Assembly: GCF_003072065.1 (NCBI RefSeq)
Contig: NZ_QCYG01000010.1
Coordinates: 1-64,000 of the forward strand
Source: Thalassorhabdomicrobium marinisediminis
Lineage (GTDB): Bacteria > Pseudomonadota > Alphaproteobacteria > Rhodobacterales > Rhodobacteraceae
Reading direction: 5' to 3'
Length of the DNA: 64,000 nt
Shown here: positions 12,015 to 26,319 of the stretch, one piece after another
How the letters are laid out: each line of letters opens with the position of its first letter
Numbering within the stretch: the first letter of the stretch is position 1
Program-made: the position numbers and the translations under genes
The notes under the pieces: generated by a model
Told to the model about the DNA's origin: nothing
The model's database searches: none
What the model saw: only the letters and a program-made list of their open reading frames with translations

Positions 12015-12042
12015 GCGCGCTCCGGTCGGGACCGGGGCGCGC
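12015..12042. terminator. Hairpin between convergent genes
   Basis: GCGCGCTCCGGTC and GACCGGGGCGCGC pair over 13 positions (one G-T pair) with a 2-base spacer. The hairpin lies exactly between the stop of the secreted-protein gene and the stop of the minus-strand molybdoenzyme gene, so it can serve as a bidirectional terminator. It lacks a T run on either side. Confidence 0.55.
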
Positions 12043-14309
12043 TACATCTGTGCGGGGCGCAGCTTGACGAGACATGTGTGCGCGATGGGCCCTTGCGCGA
12101 GTTTCGAGGTGCCGCGATCCTCGGTCAGCACGTTGGGATTGCCGTTCAGGCACAATCCCTCGACCTGACGGGACGGGTTGAACCACGCCCCCGTCGCCAT
12201 CTGCGCCACCCCCGGCCGCACCGCATCATCCAGCACCACCCGCGCAAGACAGGCACCACGGCTGTTGAACACCTCGACCGCCGCCCCATCGGACAAGCCC
12301 CGCGCGGCTGCATCCTTCGGGTTGAGGCGCAGCCGTTCCAGCCCGCCGGGCCGGTCGCCCTGGCTGACGAGGCCGTGGTCCAGTTGCGAATGCAGCTTGG
12401 TGCGCGGCTGGTTCGAAATCAGGTGCAGCGCGTCCGTGTCACCGTTGCCAAGCCACTCGAACGGCTCAAGCCAGGTGACGTGGCCCGGGCAATCGTCATA
12501 GCCGAAACTGTCGATCTCGGCGCTCCAGAGTTCGATCTTGCCACTCTTGGTGGGGATCGGATGGGCCTGCGGATCGGCGCGGAACGCCTCGAACATCACA
12601 TTGGGTTTGTCCGGGACGGGCACCTTGTGCCAACCGCGCGCGCGCAACGTGTCATAGTCGGGCAGCTCCACGCCCGCAGCGCGGGCACGGTTGCGGCTTT
12701 CGCCGTAAAGGTGGCGCTGCCAGCCGTCTTGGTCGCGCCCCTCGCTAAAGGCCGCGCCCAGCCCCATGCGTGTGGCCAGCCCGTGGAAAATCTCATAGTC
12801 GTTTCGGGTCAAGGGCGGCGGCGCGGACACCTGTTCCATGGCGATGATGTAAGGATCCCGCCCGCTCATGCTGATGTCGGAGCGTTCCAGCGGGTTGGTG
12901 CAGGGCAGCACGATGTCCGCGTGTTGCGCCGTGGCCGTCCAGCACCAATCGTTAACGACAACGGTGTCCGGGCGGCGCCACGCCGCGCGCAGCCGGTTGA
13001 GGTCTTGATGGTGGTGGAACGGGTTGCCCCCCGCCCACCAGATCAGGCGGGTGTCGGGGTAGGTCAGCTTCTGCCCGTTGTAGTCGAACGCTCCGCCGGG
13101 GTTTTCCAGCATGTCCGTGATCCGCGCGACGGGGATGAAGCGCTGCACCGGATTGGCCCCCTGGGGCATCGCCGCATAGGGCAGGCTGTGGTTCTCCAAC
13201 CCCAGCGAGTTCACCGCCGAATAGCCCAGACCGAAGCCCCCACCGGGCAGCCCGATCTGGCCCAGCATCGACGCCAGCGTGATCGCGGCCCAAAAGGGCT
13301 GTTCCCCGTGATCCTGCCGCGTGAGGGACCAACTGGCCGAGATCATGGTCCGTTTGCGGTGCATCTTGCGCGCAAGTTCAAGGATCACCTGCGGATCAAT
13401 GTCGCAAATTCCGGCGGCCCATTGGGCAGTCTTGGGCGTGCCGTCCTGCGCGCCGGTCAAATAGGCGGCGAAGCGGTCGAAACCCACTGTGCAGCGGTCG
13501 AGAAAGGCCTGATCGTGCAGCCCCTCGGTCAGCAACGTGTGGCACAGACCCAGGATCATCGCCACGTCGGTCGAGGGGCGCGGGGCGATCCACTGTGCGT
13601 CTAGGGCGGCGACGGAATCGTCGCGAAGCGGTGAAACAGTGACGAATTCCACCCCGTTTCGCCGCGCGTCCAGCATGGCTTCGCGCTGCCGGTGCCGGCC
13701 CGTGCCGCCTTGGGAAATCTGCCCGTTGCGCAGGGGCAGTCCGCCGAAGGCGACGAACACTTCACTGTTGTCGACGATGCTCTGCCAATCCGTGGTGTCC
13801 GCCGCCGCAACCCAGAACCCGCCGATCACATGTTCGCAAATCACCTCTCCCGCAGCGAGGCTGTAGGTATTCACCGACGTCGTATGCCCGCCAATCAAGT
13901 TCAGGAATCGCCGCAGATGGCCCTGCGCGTGGTGGAACCGGCCGGCGCTGGCCCACCCGTAGGACCCGCCGTAAATGGCCTCATTCCCGTAGGTCTGCGT
14001 CACGCGGGTCAGCTCGTCCGTCAGAAGGGATTCGACCCTGCCCCAGCTGACTTCGACGAAATCATCCGCCCCGCGCCGGTCGCGGTTGCGGCCTTCGGGA
14101 TCCTCCAGCCAGCCCTTGCGCACCATCGGCGCGGTGATCCGCGTGGGTCCGTCGAGCACGCCGAAATAGCCCTGCGCGATGTTCGACGGATCGACGTCCT
14201 CTTCAAAAGGATGCAGCGCCTGCAGGGTCGTGCCGTCTGTCTCGGCGCGGTAGGTGCCCCAATGCATCGCGGTCAGGGGCATGTGACTGCGGTCGGGTCG
14301 GTCAGTCAT
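12042..14309 (-). CDS. Molybdopterin oxidoreductase, BisC/TorA/DMSO-reductase type
   Basis: This 755-residue protein belongs to the serine-ligated molybdopterin enzymes that reduce S-oxides or N-oxides (biotin sulfoxide reductase, TMAO and DMSO reductase). It has the family segments GGSYGWASAGRFHHAQ (containing the presumed Mo-ligand serine), LRRFLNLIGGHTTSVNTYS, WWAGGNPFHHHQDLNRL and HLISNQPRTKLHSQLDHG. There is no twin-arginine signal and no N-terminal Fe-S cysteines, so it should be cytoplasmic, like BisC. Its start overlaps the stop of the SorC regulator by 8 bases, which places it last in the nucleoside-importer operon. An S-oxide of the imported compound, for example methylthioadenosine sulfoxide, is an attractive but unproven substrate. 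Confidence 0.85.
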   Translation of the reverse strand: MTDRPDRSHMPLTAMHWGTYRAETDGTTLQALHPFEEDVDPSNIAQGYFGVLDGPTRITAPMVRKGWLEDPEGRNRDRRGADDFVEVSWGRVESLLTDELTRVTQTYGNEAIYGGSYGWASAGRFHHAQGHLRRFLNLIGGHTTSVNTYSLAAGEVICEHVIGGFWVAAADTTDWQSIVDNSEVFVAFGGLPLRNGQISQGGTGRHRQREAMLDARRNGVEFVTVSPLRDDSVAALDAQWIAPRPSTDVAMILGLCHTLLTEGLHDQAFLDRCTVGFDRFAAYLTGAQDGTPKTAQWAAGICDIDPQVILELARKMHRKRTMISASWSLTRQDHGEQPFWAAITLASMLGQIGLPGGGFGLGYSAVNSLGLENHSLPYAAMPQGANPVQRFIPVARITDMLENPGGAFDYNGQKLTYPDTRLIWWAGGNPFHHHQDLNRLRAAWRRPDTVVVNDWCWTATAQHADIVLPCTNPLERSDISMSGRDPYIIAMEQVSAPPPLTRNDYEIFHGLATRMGLGAAFSEGRDQDGWQRHLYGESRNRARAAGVELPDYDTLRARGWHKVPVPDKPNVMFEAFRADPQAHPIPTKSGKIELWSAEIDSFGYDDCPGHVTWLEPFEWLGNGDTDALHLISNQPRTKLHSQLDHGLVSQGDRPGGLERLRLNPKDAAARGLSDGAAVEVFNSRGACLARVVLDDAVRPGVAQMATGAWFNPSRQVEGLCLNGNPNVLTEDRGTSKLAQGPIAHTCLVKLRPAQM

Positions 14310-15258
14310 CGGTCAGAAGTCCCGTGGCAATGTCACAGCAGGTTACCAAATGGGTCGTGAAGCCGCCCCGGATCGCCGCGCGGGTGGCGGCCGTTTTGTC
14401 CGCGCCCGAGGTCGCAAGAAGCCCAAGCTCTTTGCCGCGCATCTCCGCGACGGTCGTGCCCATGATCCGGTCGTCAATCTCGCCGGGGATCGGCTGGCCC
14501 TCGGCGTCGATGAAACGCCCGCAAATCACCGCTGCGGCCCCCCTGGCGCGGTAACGCTCCAACGTCTCAAGCCCGACCACACCGCTGCGCAAAACGTGAC
14601 TGTCTTGGCCAACAGAGCCTGCGGCGAACAGCACCTTGTTGCAAGTGCGGATCGCGTCGAGCTGGGCGGCGATCACCGGCTCTTGCCGCAGCAGCGCCGC
14701 AAGTTCCGGACTGTCCAGCAACAGCGGCGCGTGCAGGTTGATGCAGTTGGCGGAGAACTTCATCGCCAGATTGGCCGAACAGGTCTCGGCCGCGAATCCA
14801 AGCGGCGTCGCGCGTGAGCCCACAAGCTGCACGATGTCGAGGTCGGGCATGGCGATCTCTTCCACCTCGGTCGAGATGTGGAACACCGTCTCGCCCCAGG
14901 ACACGCCGAGCCGGTCTCCGGGCCCAAGCAGGTCCGGCAACAGCTCGGCCGCCGCCCGCGCGACCCGCAACAGGGTCGCCTGCGGATCGTCCGGCAGGCC
15001 CGGCACCACGAGCACATCCGCCAGCCCGTATTTCTGCTTTACCTCTTCGGCCAGCTTGCGTTCGCGGAACACCTCCGGCTGCAGCGACACGCGCACATAG
15101 CCCTTGGCCCGTGCCTGTGCCAGGTAGTTGACCACCGTGCTGCGCGACAGGCCCAACCGTTCGGCAATCGCCGCCTGGCTCATGTCGTCGTGAAAATAAC
15201 ACCAGGCCGCCTCGATAATCTGCTGTTCGGTGCGGGATTTCAGGCCGTTACCGGGCAA
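14302..15258 (-). CDS. SorC-family (DeoR-like) sugar-phosphate-responsive regulator
   Basis: This 318-residue protein has an N-terminal helix-turn-helix (MSQAAIAERLGLSRSTVVNY, around residues 26-45) followed by the SorC sugar-binding domain (GDRLGVSWGETVF, DIVQLVGSRA, VLFAAGSVGQDS). Members of this family bind phosphorylated sugars such as deoxyribose-5-phosphate. It overlaps the permease gene upstream by 11 bases and the molybdoenzyme gene downstream by 8, so it is embedded in the importer operon. It probably controls this operon and the divergent nucleoside catabolic operon by sensing a pentose-phosphate intermediate (inference). Confidence 0.88.
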   Translation of the reverse strand: MPGNGLKSRTEQQIIEAAWCYFHDDMSQAAIAERLGLSRSTVVNYLAQARAKGYVRVSLQPEVFRERKLAEEVKQKYGLADVLVVPGLPDDPQATLLRVARAAAELLPDLLGPGDRLGVSWGETVFHISTEVEEIAMPDLDIVQLVGSRATPLGFAAETCSANLAMKFSANCINLHAPLLLDSPELAALLRQEPVIAAQLDAIRTCNKVLFAAGSVGQDSHVLRSGVVGLETLERYRARGAAAVICGRFIDAEGQPIPGEIDDRIMGTTVAEMRGKELGLLATSGADKTAATRAAIRGGFTTHLVTCCDIATGLLTDD

Positions 15259-16144
15259 GGCGCGCCCTCCGGTTGCGGAACACCAGCATCAGCACGACGA
15301 TCGCCAGCACGTAGGGCACGCTTTCCGTCAGTTGCTGGGGCAGGCCCAGCCCCTGCATCCGGAAGCCGAAGGCATCGACCAGCCCGAACAGGAGCGCCGT
15401 CGGCAACACCCAAAGCAGCCGCGCGTTGCACATCATCACGATCACCAACGCGATCCAGCCGCGCCCGGCGCTCATCCCGTCGGTGTAGAGTGTGACGTTC
15501 GAAATCGAAAGCTGCGCGCCACCCATGGCGCAAAGCGTGCCGCAGGTGATCAACGCTGACGTCTTGAGCGCCTCGGGCGAGACGCCCACCGTCCGCATCG
15601 CCGCATCGTTCTGCCCCGCCGCGCGCAGACGCAGCCCGTATTTGTGGTTTTTCAGGAACCAATGCACCACGAAGACCATGATCACCGCGAACCAGACCAG
15701 GATCGACTGCCCCGAGAGAAAGTCCCCCAGCAGTGGAATATCGGCCACCGGGCCAAGATCGATGCGCGGCAGTTGCACAATGCGGGGATCGTCAAACTGG
15801 CCCGACACGCCGAAAATCTGCCCCAGCAGGAACGCCGTCAGCCCGATGGCCAGCACGTTGAACCCGATGCTGACGATAATATGGTCGCCGCCGCGCGTGA
15901 CGCCGAAATAGGCAAAGACCAGCCCCGACAGCGCCCCGGCCACCATGGCGACCCCCAACCCCGCAAGCGCGTTGCCGGTGTAATAGGTGCCGACCACGGC
16001 GAAGAAGGCACCGATCAGCATCATGCCTTCGAGCGCGATGTTGAACACGTTGACCCGTTCGCACAGCGCGCTGCCGATGGCGGCCAGAAGCACCGGCGTG
16101 AACAGCCGCGGGATCGAGTCCATCAATGCGCTGTCGAAAAACAT
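15248..16144 (-). CDS. Nucleoside/BMP-type ABC permease 2
   Basis: This 298-residue inner-membrane permease has the family signature near its start (ERVNVFNIALEGMMLIGAF) and about eight to ten hydrophobic segments. It resembles YufQ/NupQ of the nucleoside importers built around a BMP-family binding protein. It abuts the first permease gene (16145) with no gap and overlaps the SorC gene. Together with the neighbouring ATPase and binding protein it should form a complete importer. Confidence 0.9.
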   Translation of the reverse strand: MFFDSALMDSIPRLFTPVLLAAIGSALCERVNVFNIALEGMMLIGAFFAVVGTYYTGNALAGLGVAMVAGALSGLVFAYFGVTRGGDHIIVSIGFNVLAIGLTAFLLGQIFGVSGQFDDPRIVQLPRIDLGPVADIPLLGDFLSGQSILVWFAVIMVFVVHWFLKNHKYGLRLRAAGQNDAAMRTVGVSPEALKTSALITCGTLCAMGGAQLSISNVTLYTDGMSAGRGWIALVIVMMCNARLLWVLPTALLFGLVDAFGFRMQGLGLPQQLTESVPYVLAIVVLMLVFRNRRARLAR

Positions 16145-17167
16145 CTAGCGGCCCTTTCCGTCACGACCCGAGAGCATCTTGCCCGCCACACCCGAGAGAT
16201 ACAGCACGATGATCGCCTGAATGATCTGCCCCACCTCACGCGGGATGCCGACGCTGCGTTCCATGCCGATGGCCCCGGTGGCCAGGGCAGCGAAGAAAAA
16301 GGCGGTGATCGGCGTGACCCAGGGAATGATCGCGGCCATGAGCACGGCGGCAATCCCCGTCCAGGCGTAAAGCGGCGCGGTGAGCATGCCGTCGATAAAG
16401 CGCTGGTTCATGCCGAAGACAGCGACGAAGCCTGTCATCCCCGCAATGGCACCGCTGATCATCAAGGTGCGGTAATAGAGCCTGCGCGTGGGAAAGCCCG
16501 AGGCCCGCGCGAAGCCCACGCTGTAGCCCTGCATCCGCACCCGGTAGCCGAAGACGCTGGTGCGTTCGAGGACGATCACGACAAGCGCGGTGATACCGAT
16601 CAGCACGATCCCGTAGTCAAGGATGGTGCCGGTGAACCGCGGCAGGCCCGCTTCGCGCAGAATGCGGAAAGATTGCGTCGCCCCGCTGTTCACGTCGCGG
16701 AACGGGTGCGAGACGAAGTAGGACGCAAGATAGACCGCCGGATAATTCAGCAAGAGCGAGCCAATGAGCAAAGGCACATTGGTCGCCCGTTCGATCAACC
16801 CCGCCAGCATGGCCCAAAGGGCCGCGACCACCATGGCCCCCAGCAGCGCCGAGACGGTGACGACCAGTGGCGGCGCGGGCAGATAGACCCCGATCATCGC
16901 CGCGGTCAGCCCGCCCAGCACCAACTGGCCCTCGGCGCCGATGTTGAGCAATCCGGCGCGGAACGACACCAGCACCGACATGGCTACTCCAAGCAGGATC
17001 GCGAAGCGGCTGAGCGTGGAGTAAAGGTTGAAATTGTTGCGCCCGCCGAAGGCTCCGTTGAGGAAGGCCAACACGGCTTCGCGCGTGGGGGCAAAGGCCA
17101 GCAGAAGCACCAGCCCGAGGGCGACCACCCCGATGGGCAGGGCCACCTTGCGCAGGGTTCGGGTCAT
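16145..17167 (-). CDS. Nucleoside/BMP-type ABC permease 1
   Basis: This 340-residue integral membrane protein resembles YufP/NupP. It has an N-terminal hydrophobic helix and the conserved FRAGLLNIGAEGQLVLGGLT segment that marks the RbsC/BMP-type permeases. Its ATG overlaps the stop of the ATPase gene (17164-17167), indicating translational coupling. It pairs with the second permease to make the translocation pore. Confidence 0.9.
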   Translation of the reverse strand: MTRTLRKVALPIGVVALGLVLLLAFAPTREAVLAFLNGAFGGRNNFNLYSTLSRFAILLGVAMSVLVSFRAGLLNIGAEGQLVLGGLTAAMIGVYLPAPPLVVTVSALLGAMVVAALWAMLAGLIERATNVPLLIGSLLLNYPAVYLASYFVSHPFRDVNSGATQSFRILREAGLPRFTGTILDYGIVLIGITALVVIVLERTSVFGYRVRMQGYSVGFARASGFPTRRLYYRTLMISGAIAGMTGFVAVFGMNQRFIDGMLTAPLYAWTGIAAVLMAAIIPWVTPITAFFFAALATGAIGMERSVGIPREVGQIIQAIIVLYLSGVAGKMLSGRDGKGR

Positions 17168-18732
17168 GCCGGCACCCCTTCCCGTCCGCCGGTCATCGCG
17201 GCCCCCACGGCGATGGCGTCCAGCCCGTCGCGCGGGAAGATGGCGTTCAAGGCCCCGTCGCAGAGCACGCCAACGCGGTCGGACAGGGCGAACAACTCCT
17301 CAAGGTCGCTGCTCACGAGAACCACAGCGCAGCCGGTCGCCGCTAATTCGAGGATCTGCTTGTGGATGAAGGTAATCGCGCCTACGTCGACGCCCCAGCA
17401 GGGGTTCTCCACCACCAGAAGCTGCGGGCGGGCCGACAACTCACGCGCGACGACGATCTTCTGCTGGTTCCCACCCGAGAGCTTCGCCACCGTCTGCCGG
17501 TCCGAGGGGGTGCGGATGTCGAAGCGGTCGATCAGGTCGCGGCTGAACTTGCGGATGCGGGATTTCGTCAGGAAGCCGCGGGTGGAAAAGGCGCTTTTGC
17601 CCTCGCGTCCGGCGATCAGGTTTTCCGCAACGGAGCCCGCCTGCGCCAGCCCCATCGCCATGCGGTCCTCAGCCATGTAGCCCAGCCCCAGCGCGCGGCG
17701 CGCGGCCACGTCGAGCGGCAGGATGTCACGGCCCGCGAAACGCACCGCGCCCTGTGCGCCTTCCAGCCCGACGAGCGCGTTGACCAGCTCTTTCTGGCCA
17801 TTGCCGGACACGCCGGCGATGCCGAACACCTCGCCCGCGTGGACCTCGAAGTTTACGTCGCGCAGGGCGGGCTTGCCCTGTTGCCGCTGCACGGTAAGGT
17901 TGGCGACCGAAAGCACCACATCGGCCCCCGCGGCGCTGTGTTTCTCAACCACCTCAATCCTATCGCCCACCATAAGCTCGGCCAGTTCTGCCGTGTTGGT
18001 CTCTGCCGTGGCCCGTTCGGCCACCAGCTTGCCCCGCCGCATGACCAGAATCCGGTCGGCGTTGTCCATCACCTCATCCAGCTTGTGGGTGATCAGCACG
18101 ATCGACGTGCCCTGCGCCTGCAACCGCGCCAGCATCCGGTACAGCGCGATGCTTTCCTGCGGCGTGAGCACCGCCGTCGGCTCATCCAGAATGACGACCG
18201 AAGCACCGCGATAGAGCAGTTTGACGATCTCGACCTGTTGACGCGCATCGACGGGCAGATCGGCCACCTTGCGATCCAGATCGAGGGCGAAATCGAAGTC
18301 GCGCAGGATCTCTGTCGCCCGAGCGCGGTGGGTGGCAAGGGGGATGCGCCCACCGCGGCCGGTGTCCTCTTGTCCGACGATGATGTTTTCCAGCACCGTC
18401 AGATCAGGGTAGAGCATGAAATGCTGGTGCACCATGCCCAGCCCCGCCGCAATCGCGTCGCGCGCCGACCGCATCGCCTGTGGCCGCCCCGCGATTTCCA
18501 CCGTCCCCGCGTCCGGATCGAGCAGCCCGAACAGGATGCCCATGGTGGTGGATTTGCCGGCGCCGTTCTCTCCGATCAGGGCGAGGAATTCGCCTTTGCG
18601 CACTTCGAACGACACGTCTTGCAAGGCCTGCGTCGCTCCGAAGGCCTTGCTGATGCCCGACAGGCGGCAGACCGCAGGCGTTGACGTTTCATTCTGCTTC
18701 ACACGCGCCCCCACGGTCGGCCTGCCTTCCAT
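17164..18732 (-). CDS. Nucleoside/BMP-type ABC ATPase with two nucleotide-binding domains
   Basis: This 522-residue protein resembles YufO/NupO and the sugar ATPases RbsA/MglA. The first domain has an intact Walker A (GENGAGKST), an ABC-signature region (VDARQQVEIVKLLYRG) and Walker B (VVILDEPTAVL). The second domain has a degenerate P-loop (GVSGNGQKE) but a good signature (KLSGGNQQKIVVAREL), the pattern usual for this family. It follows the binding-protein gene after a hairpin of 7 base pairs and overlaps the permease gene. Confidence 0.92.
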   Translation of the reverse strand: MEGRPTVGARVKQNETSTPAVCRLSGISKAFGATQALQDVSFEVRKGEFLALIGENGAGKSTTMGILFGLLDPDAGTVEIAGRPQAMRSARDAIAAGLGMVHQHFMLYPDLTVLENIIVGQEDTGRGGRIPLATHRARATEILRDFDFALDLDRKVADLPVDARQQVEIVKLLYRGASVVILDEPTAVLTPQESIALYRMLARLQAQGTSIVLITHKLDEVMDNADRILVMRRGKLVAERATAETNTAELAELMVGDRIEVVEKHSAAGADVVLSVANLTVQRQQGKPALRDVNFEVHAGEVFGIAGVSGNGQKELVNALVGLEGAQGAVRFAGRDILPLDVAARRALGLGYMAEDRMAMGLAQAGSVAENLIAGREGKSAFSTRGFLTKSRIRKFSRDLIDRFDIRTPSDRQTVAKLSGGNQQKIVVARELSARPQLLVVENPCWGVDVGAITFIHKQILELAATGCAVVLVSSDLEELFALSDRVGVLCDGALNAIFPRDGLDAIAVGAAMTGGREGVPA

Positions 18733-18754
18733 TTACCGCCACGCCTGCAGCGGC

Positions 18755-18772
18755 CTGAACCCTTCGGTTCAG
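18755..18772. terminator. Intra-operon hairpin after the binding-protein gene
   Basis: CTGAACC-CTTC-GGTTCAG is a perfect 7-bp hairpin that overlaps the stop codon of the binding-protein gene and precedes the ATPase gene. Such hairpins often attenuate transcription or protect the upstream mRNA so that the binding protein is made in excess. No T run is present on the minus strand. Confidence 0.5.
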
Positions 18773-19797
18773 TTCGCCATCAGCGGATCGTTGACCTCAA
18801 GCGTGCCGTCGATGATCTCTTGGGCGATGGCCTGCACCTGTGCGGCCACCTCGGGATCCTCTGCGATCATGCAGCCACTTTCGGCCATCACGGCAGGATC
18901 GCTCAGCGCCACCGCGCCCATGCCACCCTCGGCCAGCCCGTAAGAGGCAAAGTGCGCCTCAGCCCCGCCCTGAATGGCTTCGATGGACTGCAGGATCGCT
19001 TCGTCCACCTGCTTGAGGGCGACGTCATACATCTGCCCCGGTGCCGCGTCGCACTGGATCGTGTCCACGGCCATGGTAATGAAGCCCTGTTCGCTCGCCG
19101 CTTCGAACACCCCGTAGGAGCCGCCCGCAGCCGCGCCGTAGATCACGTCGGCCCCGGCCGCACTCAGCGCCAGCGCCTGTTCCTTCGCGCGCACCGGATC
19201 GGAGAAGGCGTTCTGCCCGCCGACCCAGCGGGTCTCCACGGTCACATCGGGGTTCACGTGCTTCGCGCCATCGGCAAAACCGCCGGTGAAGCGGTGCATG
19301 AAGGGAATGTCGATCGGGCCGACCACGCCGACGGTGCCCGTCTCGGTCTTGAGGCCGGCGATTGCGCCCATCAGGAACGACGATTCATGCTCGCGGAAGA
19401 CAGCGCAATGCACGTTGGCGGGGCGCTCCTCGGACGGGCAAGCATCGACCAGAAGAAAGTCTGTATCCGGCGCGGTGGGGGCGACTTCCATCACGCCATC
19501 CACGGCCGAGAAGCTGATGCCGATAATGATATCCGCGCCGACGCTGGCGGCGGCATAAAGGTTTTCGAGCATCGCTTGCGGAGCTTCGCTTTCATAGGTC
19601 TCGACGCTCGCGCCGATCTGCTCACCCGCGGCTTCCGCGCCGGCCCGTCCGAGAACGAGGAACGGGTTGTTCCCGATGGGGTTCGGCGTGATGTAGATGA
19701 TCGAGGTGTCCTGCGCCGTGGCCGCCGCTCCCGAAAGCGCAAGCGTCAACCCCGTTGCCAAGGCCGTCGTCAGGTATTTTGCCGTGAAATGTGCCAT
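18769..19797 (-). CDS. BMP-family nucleoside-binding protein
   Basis: This 342-residue periplasmic solute receptor has a Sec signal peptide ending in GAAATAQD (cleavage AxA) and no lipobox, unlike the lipoprotein BmpA/PnrA of Gram-positives and spirochaetes. The mature part has the BMP features GADIIIGISFSAVDGVMEVA, TGTVGVVGPIDIPFMHRFTGGF and ADVIYGAAAGGSYGVFEAA. Known members bind purine nucleosides. It is the first gene of the importer operon and is divergent from purine nucleoside phosphorylase, which supports a nucleoside substrate. Confidence 0.9.
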   Translation of the reverse strand: MAHFTAKYLTTALATGLTLALSGAAATAQDTSIIYITPNPIGNNPFLVLGRAGAEAAGEQIGASVETYESEAPQAMLENLYAAASVGADIIIGISFSAVDGVMEVAPTAPDTDFLLVDACPSEERPANVHCAVFREHESSFLMGAIAGLKTETGTVGVVGPIDIPFMHRFTGGFADGAKHVNPDVTVETRWVGGQNAFSDPVRAKEQALALSAAGADVIYGAAAGGSYGVFEAASEQGFITMAVDTIQCDAAPGQMYDVALKQVDEAILQSIEAIQGGAEAHFASYGLAEGGMGAVALSDPAVMAESGCMIAEDPEVAAQVQAIAQEIIDGTLEVNDPLMAN

Positions 19798-20026
19798 CTG
19801 GTCTGGCTCCCTGTTGTGTCAGCTCCAAGCCGCCCCTGCGGCCCTGTTCACCCGCCTTGTAAGCCGCATCGGCGGCACACGACAAGCACGGAATGAACCC
19901 TCCATACCGCAGGCTCCGCGATTTTTGCACAAATGTCAACGCGCCTGTTTTTTGTGTTTTTTCTTTCCTTTCCGGAATTGACGGTGCTAAGGATTGGCCG
20001 GTCAAACCGGACAGGGGGAACGAGTC
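19798..20026. promoter_or_regulatory. Divergent control region of the nucleoside import and catabolism operons
   Basis: The 229 bases between the two operons contain an AT-rich block (19921-19972). This includes TTTTTGCACAAATGTCAACG, in which TGTCAA reads as TTGACA on the minus strand, and a T-rich stretch TGTTTTTTGTGTTTTTTC. This is the likely promoter area for both directions and the likely SorC operator. AGGGGGA is the ribosome site for the plus-strand gene. A single exact operator cannot be fixed by eye. Confidence 0.45.
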
Positions 20027-20869
20027 ATGCTTAAGGCGCAAGTGTTGGAAGCGGTCGAGGCGATCCGAAAGCGAAGCGACGTGGTGCCCGAACTGGCGCT
20101 GGTTCTGGGGTCCGGCCTGGGGCCGCTGGCGGACCATATCGACGGCGTGACGATCCCCTATTCCGAGATTCCCCATTTTCCCGTCTCGACCGTGCAGGGT
20201 CACGACGGGGTTCTGATCGTCGGCACCCTGTTCGGCCGCACCTGCGTGGCGATGCGGGGTCGGGTGCATATGTATGAAGGTTATTCCGCGCAAGAGGTCA
20301 CCTTTCCGATGCGGGTCATGGCGGCCCTGGGCGCGACGACCACGGTGATCACCAATGCCGCCGGTGGCATGGGCGATGGCATGGTGGTGGGCGACATCGT
20401 CGCCATCGAGGACCATCTGTCGCTGGCTGTGGCCGCCGGGTTCGACCCCTTGCGCGGCCCCAATGAACCCGCCTTCGGTGAGCGGTTCGTGTCAATGAAC
20501 AAGGCCTATGACCCCGAGCTGATCGCGCTGGTGCAATCTCTGTCGCCGATGGTGTCGCGGGGGGTCTATGGCCATGCCATCGGCCCCAGTTTCGAGCCCC
20601 CGGCGCTGATCCGGTTCCTCAAGCAGGCGGGCGTCGATCTGGTGGGCATGTCCACCGTGCCCGAAGTGATCGTCGCGCGGCACATGGGGCTGAAGGTTCT
20701 GGCGCTTTCGGCCGTGACCAATATCGCCGTCAGCTCCGTCAACGACGCCCATGTCACCAACGAGGATGAGGTCTGGGAAGCGGTCAAACTGGTGCAGCCC
20801 AAGCTGCTCACGTTGATGGAGGCGCTGATCCCCGTCCTGCCCCGCGCCGACAGCGGGTCCGCAGCATGA
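20027..20869 (+). CDS. Purine nucleoside phosphorylase, trimeric type
   Basis: The enzyme splits a purine nucleoside with phosphate into base and (5-substituted) ribose-1-phosphate. The 280-residue protein has the phosphate/ribose site segments VLGSGLGPLAD, MRGRVHMYEGY and TNAAGGMGDGM, the GPSFE and TN residues associated with 6-oxopurines, and GMSTVPEVIVARHMGLKVL. I chose the ATG at 20027 with AGGGGGA upstream over a TTG 33 bases earlier. By eye the position of the 5'-OH-binding His of mammalian PNP (in NHEEV) is Glu here (NEDEV), so the 5' group recognised may not be hydroxyl. The ATGA overlap with the deaminase gene indicates coupling. Confidence 0.9.
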   Translation: MLKAQVLEAVEAIRKRSDVVPELALVLGSGLGPLADHIDGVTIPYSEIPHFPVSTVQGHDGVLIVGTLFGRTCVAMRGRVHMYEGYSAQEVTFPMRVMAALGATTTVITNAAGGMGDGMVVGDIVAIEDHLSLAVAAGFDPLRGPNEPAFGERFVSMNKAYDPELIALVQSLSPMVSRGVYGHAIGPSFEPPALIRFLKQAGVDLVGMSTVPEVIVARHMGLKVLALSAVTNIAVSSVNDAHVTNEDEVWEAVKLVQPKLLTLMEALIPVLPRADSGSAA

Positions 20870-22182
20870 ACGTGCAGGTCGATACCTTAATCCACAACGG
20901 CACCGTCCTGACCATGGATGCCGAACGCACGGTGCATGACGGAGGTTTCGTCGCGCTCACCGATGGCAAGATCAGCCATGTGGGTCCCGCGTCCGGCGCC
21001 GCAGAGCTGGCCGCGACGACTCGCATCGACGCGCAGGGCGGGCTGATCCTGCCCGGCTTCATCAACACCCATTGCCACGCGGCGATGGCGCTGTTTCGCG
21101 GGCTGGCGGACAACGTCAATCTGGACGGGTTCCTCAACACTGTCTGGGCCGCCGAAGCCGCCCACATCACGCCCGAAACCGTCGAACAGGGCGCGGCGCT
21201 GGCTATGGCGGAAATGGCCCTGGGCGGGGTGACCCATGTGCTGGATATGTATTGGTATCCGGACGCCACCATCACCGCCGCGCGGACCGTGGGCCTTGGC
21301 ATCACCTCGGGCCCGCCGATGTTGAACGTCGAGGGCGTGGACGGGCTGTCGTGGGACGACCGGATCGCTTTCACGCGCAATTTTCTGGCCCGCTATACCG
21401 AGGTTGACGGGGTGCAGCCGATGCTGGTGCCCCACGGGTGCTATACGCTCGATGCCGACAAGCTGGCACAGATCGCCCAGCTTGCGCAGTCGGAGGGCGT
21501 CGGCGTTCATATCCACGCGGCCGAAGCCGATTGGGAAATGGACCTTGTGCAAAAGGCCTATGGCACGACCCCGATCCGCGCGTTGCAGCAGGCCGGTCTG
21601 TTGGAGCAACCGCTGTTGCTCGCCCACGCGGTGCATCTGGACGACGCCGAGATCGACATGCTTGCCGCCGCGAACGTCGCCGTGGCCCATTGTCCGCTGT
21701 CCAATGCCAAGCTCGCCTCAGGCACGGCGCGGATCGGCGATCTTGCGGCTAAGGGCGTAACCCTCTCGCTGGGCACGGACGGGCCGGCCAGCGGCAACGA
21801 CCTTGATATGTTCGCCACCATGCGCCTTACCGCGCTGCTGCACAATCTGCGCACCGGCACCTCGGACACGCTGCACGCCCGCGACATCGTCGCCATGGCG
21901 ACCTGCGGCGGGGCGGCCGCGCTGGGTCTGGCGGACCGGACCGGCACGCTTGAGGTGGGCAAACAGGGCGACGTGACCGTGATCGCCACCGATGCACCGC
22001 ACAACGTGCCCACTTACGACCCCTATTCGACGCTGGTGTTCAGCGCCGGCCGCAGCGACGTGCGCCACGTCTTCGCGCGCGGCCGGGCGATCGTCAGCGA
22101 CCGCGCGCTGACCACGCCGGTCGCGCCGCTGATCGACGATGTGAAACGGCTGGCCACAGCCATCAGAAGTGAGACGACGTAA
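20866..22182 (+). CDS. MTA/SAH deaminase-type amidohydrolase
   Basis: This 438-residue metal-dependent hydrolase belongs to the MtaD/TrzN group, known for deaminating 5'-methylthioadenosine, S-adenosylhomocysteine and adenosine. The metal site is visible as THCH (His69, His71), HIHAAEADWEMD, LAHAVHLDD and LGTDGPASGNDLDM. Its gene overlaps the phosphorylase stop (ATGA) and its own stop overlaps the MtnA start (TAATG). Deamination before phosphorolysis fits the 6-oxopurine motifs of the upstream phosphorylase: adenine nucleoside to inosine-type nucleoside to hypoxanthine plus sugar-1-phosphate. Substrate choice among MTA, SAH, 5'-deoxyadenosine and adenosine is not decidable by motif. Confidence 0.88.
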   Translation: MNVQVDTLIHNGTVLTMDAERTVHDGGFVALTDGKISHVGPASGAAELAATTRIDAQGGLILPGFINTHCHAAMALFRGLADNVNLDGFLNTVWAAEAAHITPETVEQGAALAMAEMALGGVTHVLDMYWYPDATITAARTVGLGITSGPPMLNVEGVDGLSWDDRIAFTRNFLARYTEVDGVQPMLVPHGCYTLDADKLAQIAQLAQSEGVGVHIHAAEADWEMDLVQKAYGTTPIRALQQAGLLEQPLLLAHAVHLDDAEIDMLAAANVAVAHCPLSNAKLASGTARIGDLAAKGVTLSLGTDGPASGNDLDMFATMRLTALLHNLRTGTSDTLHARDIVAMATCGGAAALGLADRTGTLEVGKQGDVTVIATDAPHNVPTYDPYSTLVFSAGRSDVRHVFARGRAIVSDRALTTPVAPLIDDVKRLATAIRSETT

Positions 22183-23249
22183 TGGCATTTCGTGCAATTG
22201 AATGGCTGGATGACAGCGACACCCTGCAGCTGATCGACCAGAAGGTCCTGCCGCAGCAGGTGCGCTATCTTGAGCTGAACACCACCGCCGAGATTGCGCG
22301 CGCGATCCATGACATGACGGTGCGCGGTGCGCCCGCCATCGGGGTCGCCGCCGCGTTCGGCATCTTGCAAGCGGCCCGCAGCTTTGCCGACGCGCCCGCA
22401 GAGGAGATGCAGAGCGCCCTGCAACAGGCCGACGCGGTGCTGCGGGCCTCGCGCCCGACGGCGGTCAACCTGTTCTGGGCGCTGGACCGGATGAAGGCCG
22501 TCTGGGCCGATGCTACAGATCCCGCCAACCTGCCCGCGGCCCTACACCGCGAAGCACTGGCCATCGAGGAAGACGACATCGCCGTGAACCGCGCGATTTC
22601 CGCCGAGGCGCTGAAGATCCTGCCGCAGAAGGTGACGTTCTTCCACCACTGCAACACCGGATCGCTTGCCACCGTCGATCTGGGCACCGCGCTTGGCATC
22701 ATCCGCAGCGCCCATGAGGCGGGGCACGAGGTGTTCGCCTACCTTGATGAGACCCGCCCCCGCCTGCAGGGAGCGAAGTTGTCGTCGTTCGAACTGCTGG
22801 AATTCGGCGTGCCCCATGCCATCGTCGTGGACGGCGCGTCAGCCCATATCATGCGCACACAGGACGTGGACATCGCCGTGGTCGGCTGTGACCGCGTCGC
22901 GGCGAACGGCGATGTGGCCAACAAGATCGGCACCTATAACCTCGCCCTCGCGGCCGCCGACAACGACGTGCCTTTCTATGTCGCCGCCCCCATGTCCACC
23001 ATCGATTTCGCGACCCCCGACGGCGACGCCATCGAGATCGAGGAGCGCGACAGCGCCGAAGTGACCGAGATCAACGGCCACGCCATCGCGCCGCCCGACG
23101 CGCCCGCGTTCAATCCGGCCTTCGATGTGACACCGAACCGCCTGATCGCGGGGATCATCACCGAATACGGCATCGCCCGCCCGCCCTTTACCGACAGTCT
23201 GGCCGCGATGCGAACCGCACAGCAAAATGCCCTCAAGGAGGACGTATGA
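22182..23249 (+). CDS. mtnA: 5-methylthioribose-1-phosphate isomerase (aldose-1-phosphate isomerase)
   Basis: MtnA converts 5-methylthioribose-1-phosphate to the corresponding ribulose-1-phosphate; the family is related to eIF2B and to archaeal ribose-1,5-bisphosphate isomerase. The 355-residue protein has MTVRGAPAIGVAAAFG, the catalytic cysteine in HHCNTGSLAT (Cys157) and the catalytic aspartate in VGCDRVAANGDVANKIGTY (Asp237). Start and stop overlap both neighbours by 1-4 bases. In the usual methionine salvage pathway mtnB and further genes follow; here a transketolase and a RuBisCO-like protein do, so the ketose product is channelled differently. Confidence 0.93.
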   Translation: MAFRAIEWLDDSDTLQLIDQKVLPQQVRYLELNTTAEIARAIHDMTVRGAPAIGVAAAFGILQAARSFADAPAEEMQSALQQADAVLRASRPTAVNLFWALDRMKAVWADATDPANLPAALHREALAIEEDDIAVNRAISAEALKILPQKVTFFHHCNTGSLATVDLGTALGIIRSAHEAGHEVFAYLDETRPRLQGAKLSSFELLEFGVPHAIVVDGASAHIMRTQDVDIAVVGCDRVAANGDVANKIGTYNLALAAADNDVPFYVAAPMSTIDFATPDGDAIEIEERDSAEVTEINGHAIAPPDAPAFNPAFDVTPNRLIAGIITEYGIARPPFTDSLAAMRTAQQNALKEDV

Positions 23250-24172
23250 GAAACGAAAAAACCACCGAAGACATCGCACTGGGCATCCGCCGCCGCGTCT
23301 TCGAACATGCCATGCGCAACAACGGCGGGTATCTGTCTCAGGCCTGCTCGGCCGCCGAGCAGCTCGCCTGGCTCTATAACGAAGAGCTGAACCTTGGCGC
23401 GCCGACCTTGCCGATGATCCCGAAACCCTTTGAGGGGGTGCCCCATGCGGACAACCCCGATTACCACACTGGCGCGGGTTACAACGGCCCGTTCGAGCCC
23501 GAGTTCGACCGGCTGTTCATCGCGCCCGCGCATTACGCGCTCGTCGCCTATGCCACGCTGGTGGAAACCGGACGCATGGCCGCCGAAGGGCTCGAGATGT
23601 TCAATCAGGACGGCTCAAGCGTCGAGATGATCGGCGCGGAGCATTCGCCGGGGATGGAGGTTCACAACGGCACACTTGGCATCGGTCTTTCGACCGCCGC
23701 CGGTCTGGCCTGGGGGCGCAAGCGGCGCGGCGAAACGGGCCGGGTTTGGGTCTATATGTCCGACGGCGAGGTGCAGGAGGGCCAGACCTGGGAAGCCATT
23801 CAGGCCTGCGCGCATCACCGGATCGACAACGTCAAGGCGATCATGGATGTGAACAACCAGCAATGTGACGGCGCCATGGACAGCGTCATGGAAGTGCGCG
23901 ACATCAAGGCCAAGATCGAAGCCTTTGGCGGCGTCGCCGTCGAGTGCGACGCCCACAATCTTGACGAGATGCGCGAAGCGGCCAAAACCCCGCACGAGGG
24001 CAAGCCGCTGATCATTCTGGCGCAGTCCAACCCGTTCCACGCGATGCCGATCCTGGAAGAGCGGTTCCCCCGCCTCCACTACGTGCGCTTCAAATCCGAA
24101 GAGGAACGCGCCCGCATGAATGCCTCAATCGCCGAGTCGCTGGGTGTCGAACCCATCGACTACGCCCACTAA
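23246..24172 (+). CDS. Transketolase, N-terminal (TPP-binding) subunit
   Basis: This 308-residue protein covers the TPP pyrophosphate-binding domain of transketolase. Motifs are HSPGMEVHNGTLGIGLSTAAG and the TPP/Mg motif SDGEVQEGQTWEA...DVNNQQCDG (residues 172-209). The first glycine of the usual GDG is serine, which is uncommon. It overlaps mtnA by 4 bases. Split transketolases occur in archaea and in specialised bacterial pathways, often with altered substrates. In this operon it would work with the C-terminal subunit on the ketose phosphate made by MtnA and the RuBisCO-like protein. Confidence 0.9.
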   Translation: MRNEKTTEDIALGIRRRVFEHAMRNNGGYLSQACSAAEQLAWLYNEELNLGAPTLPMIPKPFEGVPHADNPDYHTGAGYNGPFEPEFDRLFIAPAHYALVAYATLVETGRMAAEGLEMFNQDGSSVEMIGAEHSPGMEVHNGTLGIGLSTAAGLAWGRKRRGETGRVWVYMSDGEVQEGQTWEAIQACAHHRIDNVKAIMDVNNQQCDGAMDSVMEVRDIKAKIEAFGGVAVECDAHNLDEMREAAKTPHEGKPLIILAQSNPFHAMPILEERFPRLHYVRFKSEEERARMNASIAESLGVEPIDYAH

Positions 24173-24187
24173 GCCGGAGTTGTCCCA

Positions 24188-25192
24188 ATGGTAGAAATGG
24201 TAAACCGCCCCTATGAGGCGGCCTTCGAAAAACACGCCTTGGCCAATCCGGACGTCTTGTGCATCTCGGCCGACCTCACCTCGTCGTGCGAGATCGACAA
24301 GTTCCGCGACAACCACCCCGACCAATTCCTGTCGATGGGCATGGCCGAGCAGAACATGATGAGCTTTTGCGGCGGCCTTGGCCTCGCCGGTTACCGCCCC
24401 TTCGTGCACACCTTTGGCGTGTTCACCTACCGGCGGCCCTATGACCAGCTCATGGCGTCGATCGCCTATCCCCGGCGCAAGGTGCGGATCATGGGTTTTC
24501 TGCCCGGTATCACCACCCCCGGAGGCATGACCCATCAGGCCATCGAAGACATCAGCGTCATGCGGTCGATGCCGAACATGACGATCCTCGAGACCGGCGA
24601 CGCGACCGAGGTCGAAAGCATCTGCGAAGCCGCAGACAGCATCGACGGTCCGGTCTATTGCCGCGTGCTGCGCGGCTCGGTCCCGCGTCTGTTCGACACG
24701 CCGATTGTCGTGGGCCAGATGCGGGAGATCTCGCTGGGCGAGGACGTGTTGATCGTCACCGCGGGCATCACAACCGAAGAGGCGCTGCGCGCGACGGCGG
24801 CGTTGGAAAAGGCCGGTGTGTCGGTGCGGCACCTGCACCTCAACACCATCAAACCGTTCAACGATCAGGCGCTTCTGGACCATATCAATTCGGTCAGGGG
24901 CGGTGTGATCACCCTGGAAAACCACGTCACCGAAGGTGGAATAGGGTCGCTTGTGGCCGAAGTCATGGCCGACAACGGCGTTGGCAAGAAGTTGCGGCGG
25001 CTGGGCCTGAAAGACACCTACGCCCACGGCGGCAGCCGCGCCTATCTGATGCGCTATTACGGGCTGGACGCGCTGGCGCTGACGCAAGGGGTTGAAGAGC
25101 TTCTGGGCCAGCCGCTCAACATCACCGAAGACGATCTGGCGCAGGCGCGGGTCGAGGCGGTTCATTCGCTCGCCAAGGCCGAAGGCCTCTGA
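24188..25192 (+). CDS. Transketolase, C-terminal (pyrimidine-binding) subunit
   Basis: This 334-residue protein carries the PYR domain and the C-terminal domain of transketolase. It contains the catalytic glutamate segment LSMGMAEQNMMSFCGGLGLAG, the aromatic YRPFVHTFGVFTYRRPYDQL and the ALENHVTEGG-like ITLENHVTEGGIGSLVAEVM. It follows the N-terminal subunit after 15 bases and ends in a TGATG overlap with the RuBisCO-like gene. The two subunits together match the length of a normal transketolase but lack the extra insertions of housekeeping TktA. Confidence 0.9.
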   Translation: MVEMVNRPYEAAFEKHALANPDVLCISADLTSSCEIDKFRDNHPDQFLSMGMAEQNMMSFCGGLGLAGYRPFVHTFGVFTYRRPYDQLMASIAYPRRKVRIMGFLPGITTPGGMTHQAIEDISVMRSMPNMTILETGDATEVESICEAADSIDGPVYCRVLRGSVPRLFDTPIVVGQMREISLGEDVLIVTAGITTEEALRATAALEKAGVSVRHLHLNTIKPFNDQALLDHINSVRGGVITLENHVTEGGIGSLVAEVMADNGVGKKLRRLGLKDTYAHGGSRAYLMRYYGLDALALTQGVEELLGQPLNITEDDLAQARVEAVHSLAKAEGL

Positions 25193-26319
25193 TGGAGCGT
25201 TTCACCGTCACCTATCGCATCGTGGCCGACGACGACCACGATGCCGCCGCCCGTGCCGATGCCATCGCGCTTGAGGATACCGTCGAAATCCCCCGCGACG
25301 TGGTGCCCAAGGGCTACGTCGAGGACGTGATCCTTGGCCGGGTCGAGGATGTCACGCCCACGGGCGACGCCGTCTGGTCCGCGCGGATCGCCTATCACAT
25401 CGACAGCGTCGGCCACGATCTGGCGCAGCTGCTCAACGTGATCCTGGGCAACGCCTCGATCTTGCGCGGCGTTAAAGCGGTGGACCTGACGCCCGACGCC
25501 GCCCTGCGCGCGCGCTTTCCCGGCGCGCGGTTCGGCGCGGCGGGCGTGCGTGCGCTCACCGGACGCAGCACTGGCGGCTTTGTCTGCCCGGTGATCAAGC
25601 CGCAGGGCACCTCCTCGGACAGTCTTGCCCAATTGTGCTACCTGACCGCCGTGGCCGGGGCCGATATCGTGAAAGAGGATCACGGCCTTGCCGGGCAGGA
25701 CGCCGCGCCCTTCCGGGAGCGCGTCACCGCCTGCGCCGCCGCCGTGGCCCGCGCCAACGCCGAACGGCAAGAGAAGGGCGACCAGACGCAGGCGCTGTAT
25801 TTCCCAAACATCAGCGGCCCCGCCCACAAAATCCACGATAACGCCCGTTACGCCCGCGATGCCGGTGCCGATGGGCTGCTGATCATCCCCGGGCTTTACG
25901 GCTTCGACGCGATGAACCAGCTTGCGCAGGACGATGAACTGGACCTACCAATCATGGCGCACCCCAGCCATCTGGGGCCCTATGTGCTGTCGCCGGATCA
26001 CGGCTACGGCCACGGGATGCTGTTCGGGCAACTCATGCGTCTTGCGGGGGCCGATATCTCGGTCTTTCCCAACCATGGCGGGCGCTTCGGCTTCTCGGTT
26101 GAGGAATGCGACGCCATCGTCGCCGATTGCCGGGACCCATCAGGGGTCGGCCCCGCAATCCTGCCCAGCCCCGGCGGCGGCATGTCGGTCGAGCGCTTGC
26201 CCGACATGCAACGACAATACGGCGCGGATTGCGTCTATCTTCTGGGTGGCAGCCTGTTGCGGGCGGGGGATGGCATCGGTGATGTGATCCGGGACATGCG
26301 CCGCGCCTTGACCCCGTAG
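25192..26319 (+). CDS. RuBisCO-like protein (form IV)
   Basis: This 375-residue protein is a RuBisCO homologue. It keeps KPQG (Lys136, equivalent to Lys175) and GADIVKEDH, where Lys161 matches the carbamylated Lys201 and Asp163 matches Asp203, but His164 replaces Glu204. The loop 6 region reads PNHGGRFGF and has no lysine equivalent to Lys334, so carbon fixation is not expected. The phosphate-site glycines appear as SPGGGMS. Known form IV proteins enolise or isomerise methylthio-ketose phosphates, or act on oxo-isoapionate-4-phosphate. Following mtnA and transketolase in one operon, isomerisation of the MtnA product to a ketose-5-phosphate is the simplest guess. Confidence 0.9.
   Translation: MERFTVTYRIVADDDHDAAARADAIALEDTVEIPRDVVPKGYVEDVILGRVEDVTPTGDAVWSARIAYHIDSVGHDLAQLLNVILGNASILRGVKAVDLTPDAALRARFPGARFGAAGVRALTGRSTGGFVCPVIKPQGTSSDSLAQLCYLTAVAGADIVKEDHGLAGQDAAPFRERVTACAAAVARANAERQEKGDQTQALYFPNISGPAHKIHDNARYARDAGADGLLIIPGLYGFDAMNQLAQDDELDLPIMAHPSHLGPYVLSPDHGYGHGMLFGQLMRLAGADISVFPNHGGRFGFSVEECDAIVADCRDPSGVGPAILPSPGGGMSVERLPDMQRQYGADCVYLLGGSLLRAGDGIGDVIRDMRRALTP

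Follow-up and report, generated by a model that had tools for sequence, protein, structure and literature searches.

A split transketolase beside a RuBisCO-like protein in Thalassorhabdomicrobium marinisediminis: a candidate locus for methylthioadenosine salvage

Genes at the locus

The DNA considered here is a stretch of 64,000 nucleotides from Thalassorhabdomicrobium marinisediminis (Rhodobacteraceae; NCBI RefSeq assembly GCF_003072065.1, contig NZ_QCYG01000010.1, positions 1 to 64,000 of the forward strand), referred to as the window. Positions 12042-26319 carry two divergent gene groups, one on the minus strand (12042-19797) and one on the plus strand (20028-26319), and the latter joins a split transketolase (TK) to a RuBisCO-like protein (RLP). 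Judged from gene content, related loci and conserved residues, the locus is probably a 5'-methylthioadenosine (MTA) salvage and catabolic operon, in which the methylthioribose-1-phosphate isomerase MtnA, a 1,3-isomerisation by the RLP and cleavage by the split TK would follow one another.

The plus-strand group begins with a purine-nucleoside phosphorylase (PNP) of the 6-oxopurine type (20028..20869; NF006054, 300.1 bits, cut-off 218), whose start at 20028 appears more likely than one at 19994 from reading the sequence, and which retains the equivalent of Asn243, presumably significant for the 6-oxopurine type. It is followed by an MTA/S-adenosylhomocysteine (SAH)-type deaminase (20866..22182; Amidohydro_1, 204 bits; PRK09045, 357.5 bits, under the cut-off of 540), whose top solved structure is the MTA/SAH deaminase 4f0r (E 2.3e-79), and by MtnA (22182..23249; TIGR00512, 414.9 bits, cut-off 279; 1t9k, E 1.7e-94). 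Next come the thiamine diphosphate (ThDP)-binding N half of the TK (TKN, 23246..24172; Transketolase_N, 55.9 bits; N chain of 6yak, E 6.9e-31), the C half with the pyrimidine and C domains (TKC, 24188..25192; Transket_pyr, 86.9 bits, and Transketolase_C, 71.9 bits; 6yaj, E 1.7e-53) and the RLP (25192..26319; RuBisCO_large; PRK09549, 194.1 bits, under the cut-off of 409; 3qfw, E 6.4e-60). PNP and MtnA thus score above curated cut-offs and the deaminase, the TK halves and the RLP well under those of the best equivalog models, as expected of outlying family members. From PNP to RLP the junctions measure -4, -1, -4, +15 and -1 bases, so that the overlaps of one to four bases described by the first-pass annotation, a model's reading of the sequence alone, hold for four junctions and not for TKN-TKC.

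On the minus strand lie a BMP/PnrA-type solute-binding protein (18769..19797; Bmp PF02608, 135.2 bits), expected from its family to bind nucleosides, an ABC importer ATPase (17164..18732; ABC_tran, 148.9 bits, in two stretches), permease 1 (16145..17167; nine hydrophobic segments) and permease 2 (15248..16144; six), a SorC/DeoR-type regulator with a sugar-phosphate-binding domain (14302..15258; Sugar-bind PF04198, 179.1 bits) and, overlapping the regulator gene by 8 bases, a BisC-family molybdopterin S/N-oxide reductase (12042..14309; 892 bits with the subfamily model TIGR00509, under its cut-off of 1017.55). The permeases were assigned by position and hydropathy, a weak match from the permease comparison not being used; at the related locus L011 of Oceanicola granulosus (loci are cited by L numbers) a homologue 86% identical to permease 2 holds the same place and one of permease 1 is 84% identical. 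The first 40 residues of the reductase contain no RR pair, the protein has no hydrophobic leader, and it is probably cytoplasmic. Pfam and NCBIfam models bore out the gene content given by the first-pass annotation (BMP importer and SorC; PNP, deaminase, MtnA, both TK halves and RLP); the reductase lay inside its span and went unmentioned in its text.

Recurrence of the gene pair and class of the RuBisCO-like protein

With the RLP as query, species-representative genomes yielded 56 loci, mostly from Rhodobacterales, in which a gene was counted as present at 38% identity or more. TKC adjoins the RLP in 55 of these and TKN in 52; among the four losses of TKN, L036, L046 and L051 are cut contigs, and in L022 a remnant of TKC, its final 54 residues, immediately precedes the RLP. 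Alignment ends give an estimated spacing of -4 or -1 bases between TKC and RLP in 46/58 loci. MtnA is present in 46/56 of the stretches examined, as two subtypes (41 and 5), a methylthioribose (MTR) kinase, MtnK, in 39/56 (that of L010 scores 465 bits with TIGR01767, cut-off 275) and an Rbs-type ABC sugar importer in 41/56, and a SorC relative is best found with the query from the window in 26/56 and with that of L010 in 14/56. PNP, deaminase and MtnA together with the RLP, the adjacent set that the first-pass annotation had suggested looking for, were recovered in five of the 56 loci besides the window, and the TK-RLP pair is far wider. From these gene sets, two predicted activation routes enter one module, either deaminase, PNP and MtnA or sugar import with MtnK and MtnA.

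Compact arrangements are found on annotated plasmids, with MtnK-MtnA-TKN-TKC-RLP as a single run in Pararhizobium, Mariluticola and Agrobacterium, and with importer, PNP, amidohydrolase, mtnA, molybdenum oxidoreductase, TKN, TKC and RLP in Ponticoccus alexandrii (L174). In L084, which comes from another family and whose TKC is 60% identical to that of the window, MtnA and the TK N half share one open reading frame (ORF) of 656 residues (7149-9119), and in L061, a single metagenome or draft contig, both TK halves are in one frame. Since it recurs in tens of genomes, the gene set is not a product of chance.

Some further features of these loci were observed. The fusion ORF of L084 lies near genes for a NupC-type nucleoside transporter, a PNP and a TonB receptor. 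At L017:7534-7977 and L100:7494-7946, a gene of the RbsD/FucU mutarotase family separates the gene for the sugar-binding protein from those for TK and RLP, and an ORF of this cluster is present in 8 loci. L019 (JAFKDC010000004.1) is labelled Enemella evansiae (Actinomycetota); genome G020, of the window's own family, has the same gene set, and the label looks wrong.

Of 385 genomes searched in the class, 16 more proved to encode a related RLP (E 1e-50 or better), two with an adjoining TK and 14 with none. An RLP tree of 76 rows was built, in which L022 counted as TK-type because of its TKC remnant; YkrW and Photo sequences were not among the rows, and L001-L003, L099 and, with the exception of L073, L066-L082 were left out as short duplicates of loci represented at greater length. 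The 14 RLPs without TK form a single clade with full support, next to which the TK-type rows are placed. A cupin adjoins 13 of the 14, and the stretch of the remaining one, L088, stops at a contig end. For the cupin of L091 the top structure is Rru_A2000 of Rhodospirillum rubrum (E 5.8e-58), which we take to be the methylthioxylulose-5-phosphate methylsulfurylase, and the cupin-linked RLPs are therefore presumed to be of the DeepYkr kind. No cupin of the R. rubrum type was found in the 59 TK-type loci searched, several of which are short stretches; across the loci searched, a TK and a cupin never occur together beside the RLP.

The RLP of the window groups, by sequence, with these cupin-linked proteins. 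At 52 positions conserved at 97% or more, the 60 TK-type and 14 cupin-type RLPs are identical, and four further positions are conserved and differ; the pattern KPxG, K-x-D-H-G, HP and GGRF is retained in both types, and in the YkrW row of the alignment E replaces H and YGSV replaces GGRF. Among structures the top match is 3qfw, which we take to be RLP1 of Rhodopseudomonas palustris, with YkrW structures lower. An affiliation with the oxo-isoapionate RLPs, which the first-pass annotation had named as a finding that would count against it, is not borne out, since the window protein scores 61.6 bits with the OiaX model NF042437 against a cut-off of 700. Given this grouping and the conserved positions in common, the simplest reading is that the RLP is a predicted 5-methylthioribulose-1-phosphate 1,3-isomerase, with the same reaction as its cupin-linked relatives and another downstream enzyme. 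A study of DeepYkr RLPs from R. rubrum and R. palustris describes the conversion of methylthioribulose-1-phosphate to 1-methylthioxylulose-5-phosphate and the ribulose epimer in a 3:1 ratio (PMC5893883).

No match to an Rru_A2000-type cupin was obtained in the 64-kb window; a genome-wide search for it was not made. The cupin-domain gene at 26406-27011 was considered as the missing desulfurase and ruled out, as it encodes a regulator with helix-turn-helix (HTH) and cupin domains and Rru_A2000-type queries miss the window. This regulator opens an apparently separate operon (26406-32693) that continues with genes for an ABC importer of the Opp type, including a family 5 binding protein.

Transketolase pocket and predicted pathway

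For both TK halves the top structural match is the split TK of Carboxydothermus hydrogenoformans (6yaj/6yak). Residues were counted over distinct rows, 56 for TKN and 59 for TKC; the copies L001-L003, L066, L067 and L099 were removed from both sets and L103, L109 and L111-L113 from TKC as well, copies of the window itself being excluded as L103, L104 and L109 (TKN) and L104 (TKC). Among the residues that we take to be ThDP-binding or catalytic (His66, Glu411, His473 and Arg520, E. coli numbering), the His66 equivalent is retained in 56/56 TKN rows, and in the 59 TKC rows catalytic Glu411 is kept in 57 (two gaps), His473 in 58 (one gap) and Arg520 in 58 (one gap). The equivalents of His26, His100, His461 and Asp469, which presumably read substrate hydroxyls or phosphate, with His100 assumed to contact the C1 hydroxyl of the donor, are replaced: His100 by Ile in 56/56 TKN rows, His26 by Tyr in 55/56, and His461 by Leu and Asp469 (in the GEDG motif) by Gly, each in all 58 TKC rows with a letter there, the His461 column relying on alignment to the C. 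hydrogenoformans chain, as the genome's own TK is shifted at that point. In addition, these TKs have gained an insertion of some 27 residues that has YNGP, a motif present in 56/56 rows, at its end. A pocket of this kind would fit a donor with CH3S in place of OH at C1, which falls short of proof. In a thermostable TK, changes of the His at position 100 (H102G/L/T) and of H474 allowed aliphatic ketoacid donors, and the printed kinetics are those of the double variant H102L/H474S (PMC7696235).

Put together, these genes suggest the following route. MTA would be taken up by the BMP importer and, if the nucleoside arrives as a sulfoxide, the S-oxide reductase would restore the thioether. The deaminase would convert MTA to 5'-methylthioinosine, which PNP would split into hypoxanthine and methylthioribose-1-phosphate, and MtnA would isomerise the latter to 5-methylthioribulose-1-phosphate; all these steps are assigned from protein family. 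By shifting the carbonyl, the RLP is predicted, again from its family, to yield 1-methylthio-D-xylulose-5-phosphate, which the split TK would, from context and residues, cut between C2 and C3 to glyceraldehyde-3-phosphate and a ThDP-bound CH3S-CH2-C unit. The MtnA-RLP-TK series proposed by the first-pass annotation gains from the near-constant TKN-TKC-RLP adjacency, the company of MtnA and MtnK, the TK taking the place of the cupin, and the pocket residues.

As regards the CH3S group, chemistry argues that the ThDP enamine would lose methanethiol and become acetyl-ThDP, from which acetate or acetyl-phosphate would come. This could well be the outcome, if short of an even chance, since a thiolate beta to the enamine leaves readily; phosphoketolase eliminates water in this way and sulfoacetaldehyde acetyltransferase eliminates sulfite. 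Release as 2-(methylthio)acetaldehyde is a possible alternative, and transfer of the two-carbon unit to an acceptor an unlikely one.

The first-pass annotation had the locus import an adenine nucleoside, which we retain; as the substrate, a 5-methylthio compound now appears more likely than the plain adenosine that it also allowed, because of the MTR kinase in related loci, the dedicated TK beside a housekeeping one and the S-oxide reductase. The genome encodes elsewhere that housekeeping TK (791.6 bits, above the cut-off) and a DXS (E 1.5e-228 against a DXS of solved structure). Acireductone dioxygenase (ARD; MtnD, PF03079) has no match in the genome, by a search that was positive in 5/14 control genomes. 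PNP-superfamily genes number five including that of the window, and for none of them is the best model an MTA phosphorylase or MTA nucleosidase. With neither an ARD nor such a call, the window locus is likeliest to be the MTA route of this genome. The absence of the usual salvage genes, also claimed earlier, stands for mtnD in the genome, for the cupin in the window and for a class II aldolase at the locus; mtnC was not searched. The sole gene of the class II aldolase family in the genome is a bifunctional aldolase/short-chain dehydrogenase (SDR) at L124:10233-18358 (contig C19), together with MtnA (72% identical to the L010 type), MtnK and an Rbs-type ABC importer, and no TK or RLP match was found in that stretch. 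With this gene, and with relatives of it in 29/59 loci scanned, a route like the dihydroxyacetone phosphate (DHAP) shunt may operate alongside that of RLP and TK, just as R. palustris has both an RLP1 and an Ald2 route (PMC5893883). Apart from the salvage genes, ARAGORN calls a tRNA-Ile of 101 bases at 40934-41034 of the window, within an ORF of 557 residues (40851-42524), which is probably a false positive.

Counter-evidence, rival explanations and known systems

A number of observations weigh against the proposed series. In the pocket, the second His (the H474 position) is kept here, unlike in H102L/H474S, and the Ile/Tyr signature is not specific to methylthio donors, as more distant TKs, with FGGY kinase, SDR or sulfatase genes nearby, share it, and L013 encodes an unrelated split TK that likewise has Ile at the His100 position. 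The window PNP scores best as an inosine/guanosine PNP; a change of His257 to Glu in its 5'-pocket, considered as proof of a methylthio substrate, was ruled out because the other PNP of the genome aligns Glu there too. TK-type RLPs are not established as one clade, with L083 and L084 standing apart, and the MtnA-TKN fusion of L084 comes from one metagenome-assembled contig in which an indel error is possible. Ten of the 56 loci show no MtnA in the stretch examined, L061 among them in a housekeeping context. An aldolase is present in 37 loci (aldolase/SDR in the 29 mentioned above, FucA-type in 8/56) and could cleave methylthioribulose-1-phosphate without RLP or TK, and the second locus of the genome, L124, which would import methylthioribose, weakens exclusivity. 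Finally, when 394 genomes of the family were searched from the TK side, 32 contained a member of the close subfamily (540 bits or more), and of 31 loci inspected (29 from the family sample, two from a phylum search) an RLP adjoins the TK in 24 and is lacking in seven, one of which (L139/L163) has 177 bases of contig after TKC. No RLP match was found in the genomes of these seven, nor an MtnA match in wider stretches around them. Strict inseparability of TK and RLP is thereby ruled out, the TK subfamily is not tied to this RLP alone, and separation from mtnA, another finding that the first-pass annotation had reckoned as adverse, holds in part.

The RLP-free loci have a character of their own. 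A BisC-family reductase adjoins the TK in five of the seven, accompanied by a Zn-dehydrogenase in L161, L162 and L166 and by SorC, an AraD-like epimerase/aldolase, a Zn-dehydrogenase and a XylB-like kinase in L163 and L167; the latter set, from SorC to kinase, also occurs on plasmids of Marinovum algicola and Paracoccus seriniphilus. In all, reductase homologues stand beside the TK in L018 (cut), L019, L161-L163, L166, L167 and L172-L174, and within the set of 56 RLP loci only two (L018 and L019) have one, as do the window and Ponticoccus. The expected product of a XylB-type kinase is a 5-phosphorylated pentulose, the type of compound predicted from the RLP, and an S-oxide reductase suggests a thioether that may be encountered in its sulfoxide form. 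Thus, the RLP-free loci weaken the TK-RLP link and yet would fit a TK for 1-thio-substituted xylulose-5-phosphate. It is conceivable, if rather doubtful, that the TK breaks both the C-C and the C-S bond, giving glyceraldehyde-3-phosphate, methanethiol and acetyl-phosphate or acetate, and also serves an RLP-free pathway (Zn-dehydrogenase, XylB-like kinase, AraD-like epimerase and S-oxide reductase) that reaches the same 1-thio-substituted xylulose-5-phosphate from a sulfur-bearing pentitol or pentose.

Other surroundings were noted as well. L161-L163, L166, L167, L172 and L173 look like a sugar pathway, possibly for a sulfur-bearing pentitol, with a taurine/NMT1-type importer or a sulfatase near some. 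On a plasmid of Vibrio nigripulchritudo (L175:7054-11673), TKN-TKC accompany a divergent RLP (33% identity, lacking K-x-D-H-G), an FGGY kinase, an SDR and a carbohydrate ABC importer; mtnA and mtnK are both missing from the stretch, and the association of RLPs with TKs of this sort thus extends beyond methylthio compounds. Members of the wider split-TK clan in L157-L159 have the signatures GGYLSQ/GSYLSQ and MIG-[GA]-E-x-SPG in common and lie near genes for an FGGY kinase (L157), an SDR and aldehyde dehydrogenase (L158) or a sulfatase (L159); a more distant Variovorax pair (L178) lies beside amidase and penicillin-acylase genes.

Three other explanations were weighed. The locus could serve ordinary nucleoside catabolism, with adenosine or inosine giving ribose-1-phosphate, MtnA ribulose-1-phosphate and the RLP xylulose-5-phosphate, which TK would pass into the pentose phosphate pathway, bypassing phosphopentomutase. 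The inosine/guanosine class of the PNP would suit this, as would L084, where PNP and the NupC-type transporter occur with no deaminase match in the stretch examined. Catabolism of plain adenosine was nevertheless lowered from its place as lead reading, relatives of MTR kinase being the usual partner (39/56 loci); with a housekeeping TK in the genome, a dedicated one would hardly seem necessary, the His presumed to hold the donor C1 hydroxyl is lost, and an S-oxide reductase adjoins the TK, so that we consider it improbable. Equally low is the probability that the substrate is 5'-deoxyadenosine or 5-deoxyribose, from which the RLP would form 1-deoxyxylulose-5-phosphate (DXP) and TK glyceraldehyde-3-phosphate and a two-carbon unit. 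A pocket without a contact to the C1 hydroxyl could accept a C1 methyl, and PMC10986504 names MtnK, MtnA and Ald2 as acting on 5-deoxy compounds also; the reductase that recurs with the TK, however, has no evident role for a deoxy sugar, and cleavage of DXP would be expected to drain isoprenoid synthesis.

RLP and TK might also not act in series, an aldolase splitting methylthioribulose-1-phosphate and the TK adding or removing two carbons on another intermediate, for which a study of an unusual 5-deoxyadenosine salvage, reportedly with a role for TK, would be the precedent. The aldolase/SDR genes of the scanned loci, present also by MtnA and MtnK at L124, and the existence of TK without RLP speak for such an arrangement. 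Against it, neither aldolase type was found in the stretches examined of the nucleoside-type loci (window, L011, L019, L020, L024 and L025), TKC and RLP are closely joined, and TK and cupin exclude each other in the loci searched, which leaves it with little probability.

If the series from MtnA through RLP to split TK is right, it would explain why RLPs of the methylthioribulose-isomerase kind occur without a cupin in many Rhodobacterales and some Rhizobiales, and would add a further fate of methylthioribulose-1-phosphate in the oxygen-independent salvage of methionine by-products. It would also point to a role for the members of a split-TK subfamily whose only annotation is 'transketolase C-terminal domain-containing protein' or even 'DXP synthase N-terminal domain-containing'. 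Were methanethiol freed, there would be an additional route into the sulfur cycle; in Rhodobacterales and Rhizobiales the compound would have a new enzymatic origin, and the TK would be the methylthio analogue of phosphoketolase. Related clades with one RLP reaction and two alternative downstream enzymes would make a clear test possible.

The component families are known; the combination of RLP and split TK, common in related bacteria, is not described as a pathway in the literature searched, and in open-access PMC full text, subscription papers being outside the search, neither an RLP-TK nor an MtnK-TK pathway was found in methylthio-sugar metabolism. A parallel to the archaeal nucleotide pathway, drawn by the first-pass annotation, is kept as an analogy. 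In P. aeruginosa (Pseudomonas), MTA is reportedly deaminated by an MTA deaminase and then cleaved by methylthioinosine phosphorylase; the window likewise has a deaminase together with a 6-oxopurine phosphorylase, although the latter scores 300.1 bits as PNP and 49.8 as methylthioinosine phosphorylase (cut-off 223). The split TK of C. hydrogenoformans is also encoded by two genes, and the catalytic Glu and ThDP-site His are kept in both, whereas the window TK has lost the equivalents of His26, His100, His461 and Asp469 and gained the YNGP insert. The DHAP shunt (MtnP or MtnN and MtnK, then MtnA and Ald2) has the same early steps and, by our reasoning, cuts the original ribose at the same place, between C3 and C4, and an aldolase is often near MTR-type loci and at L124; the window locus has no aldolase, and its TK would yield glyceraldehyde-3-phosphate and an acyl-anion two-carbon unit rather than DHAP and a free aldehyde. 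Closest is the MTA-isoprenoid shunt of R. rubrum and R. palustris, in which, according to PMC5893883, MtnA is followed by a DeepYkr-type RLP, with the same 1-methylthioxylulose-5-phosphate that is predicted here. In the window, however, deaminase and PNP, or in related loci importer and MtnK, replace MtnP, and the split TK stands where the shunt has its cupin methylsulfurylase, so that no DXP would be expected from the pathway proposed for this locus.

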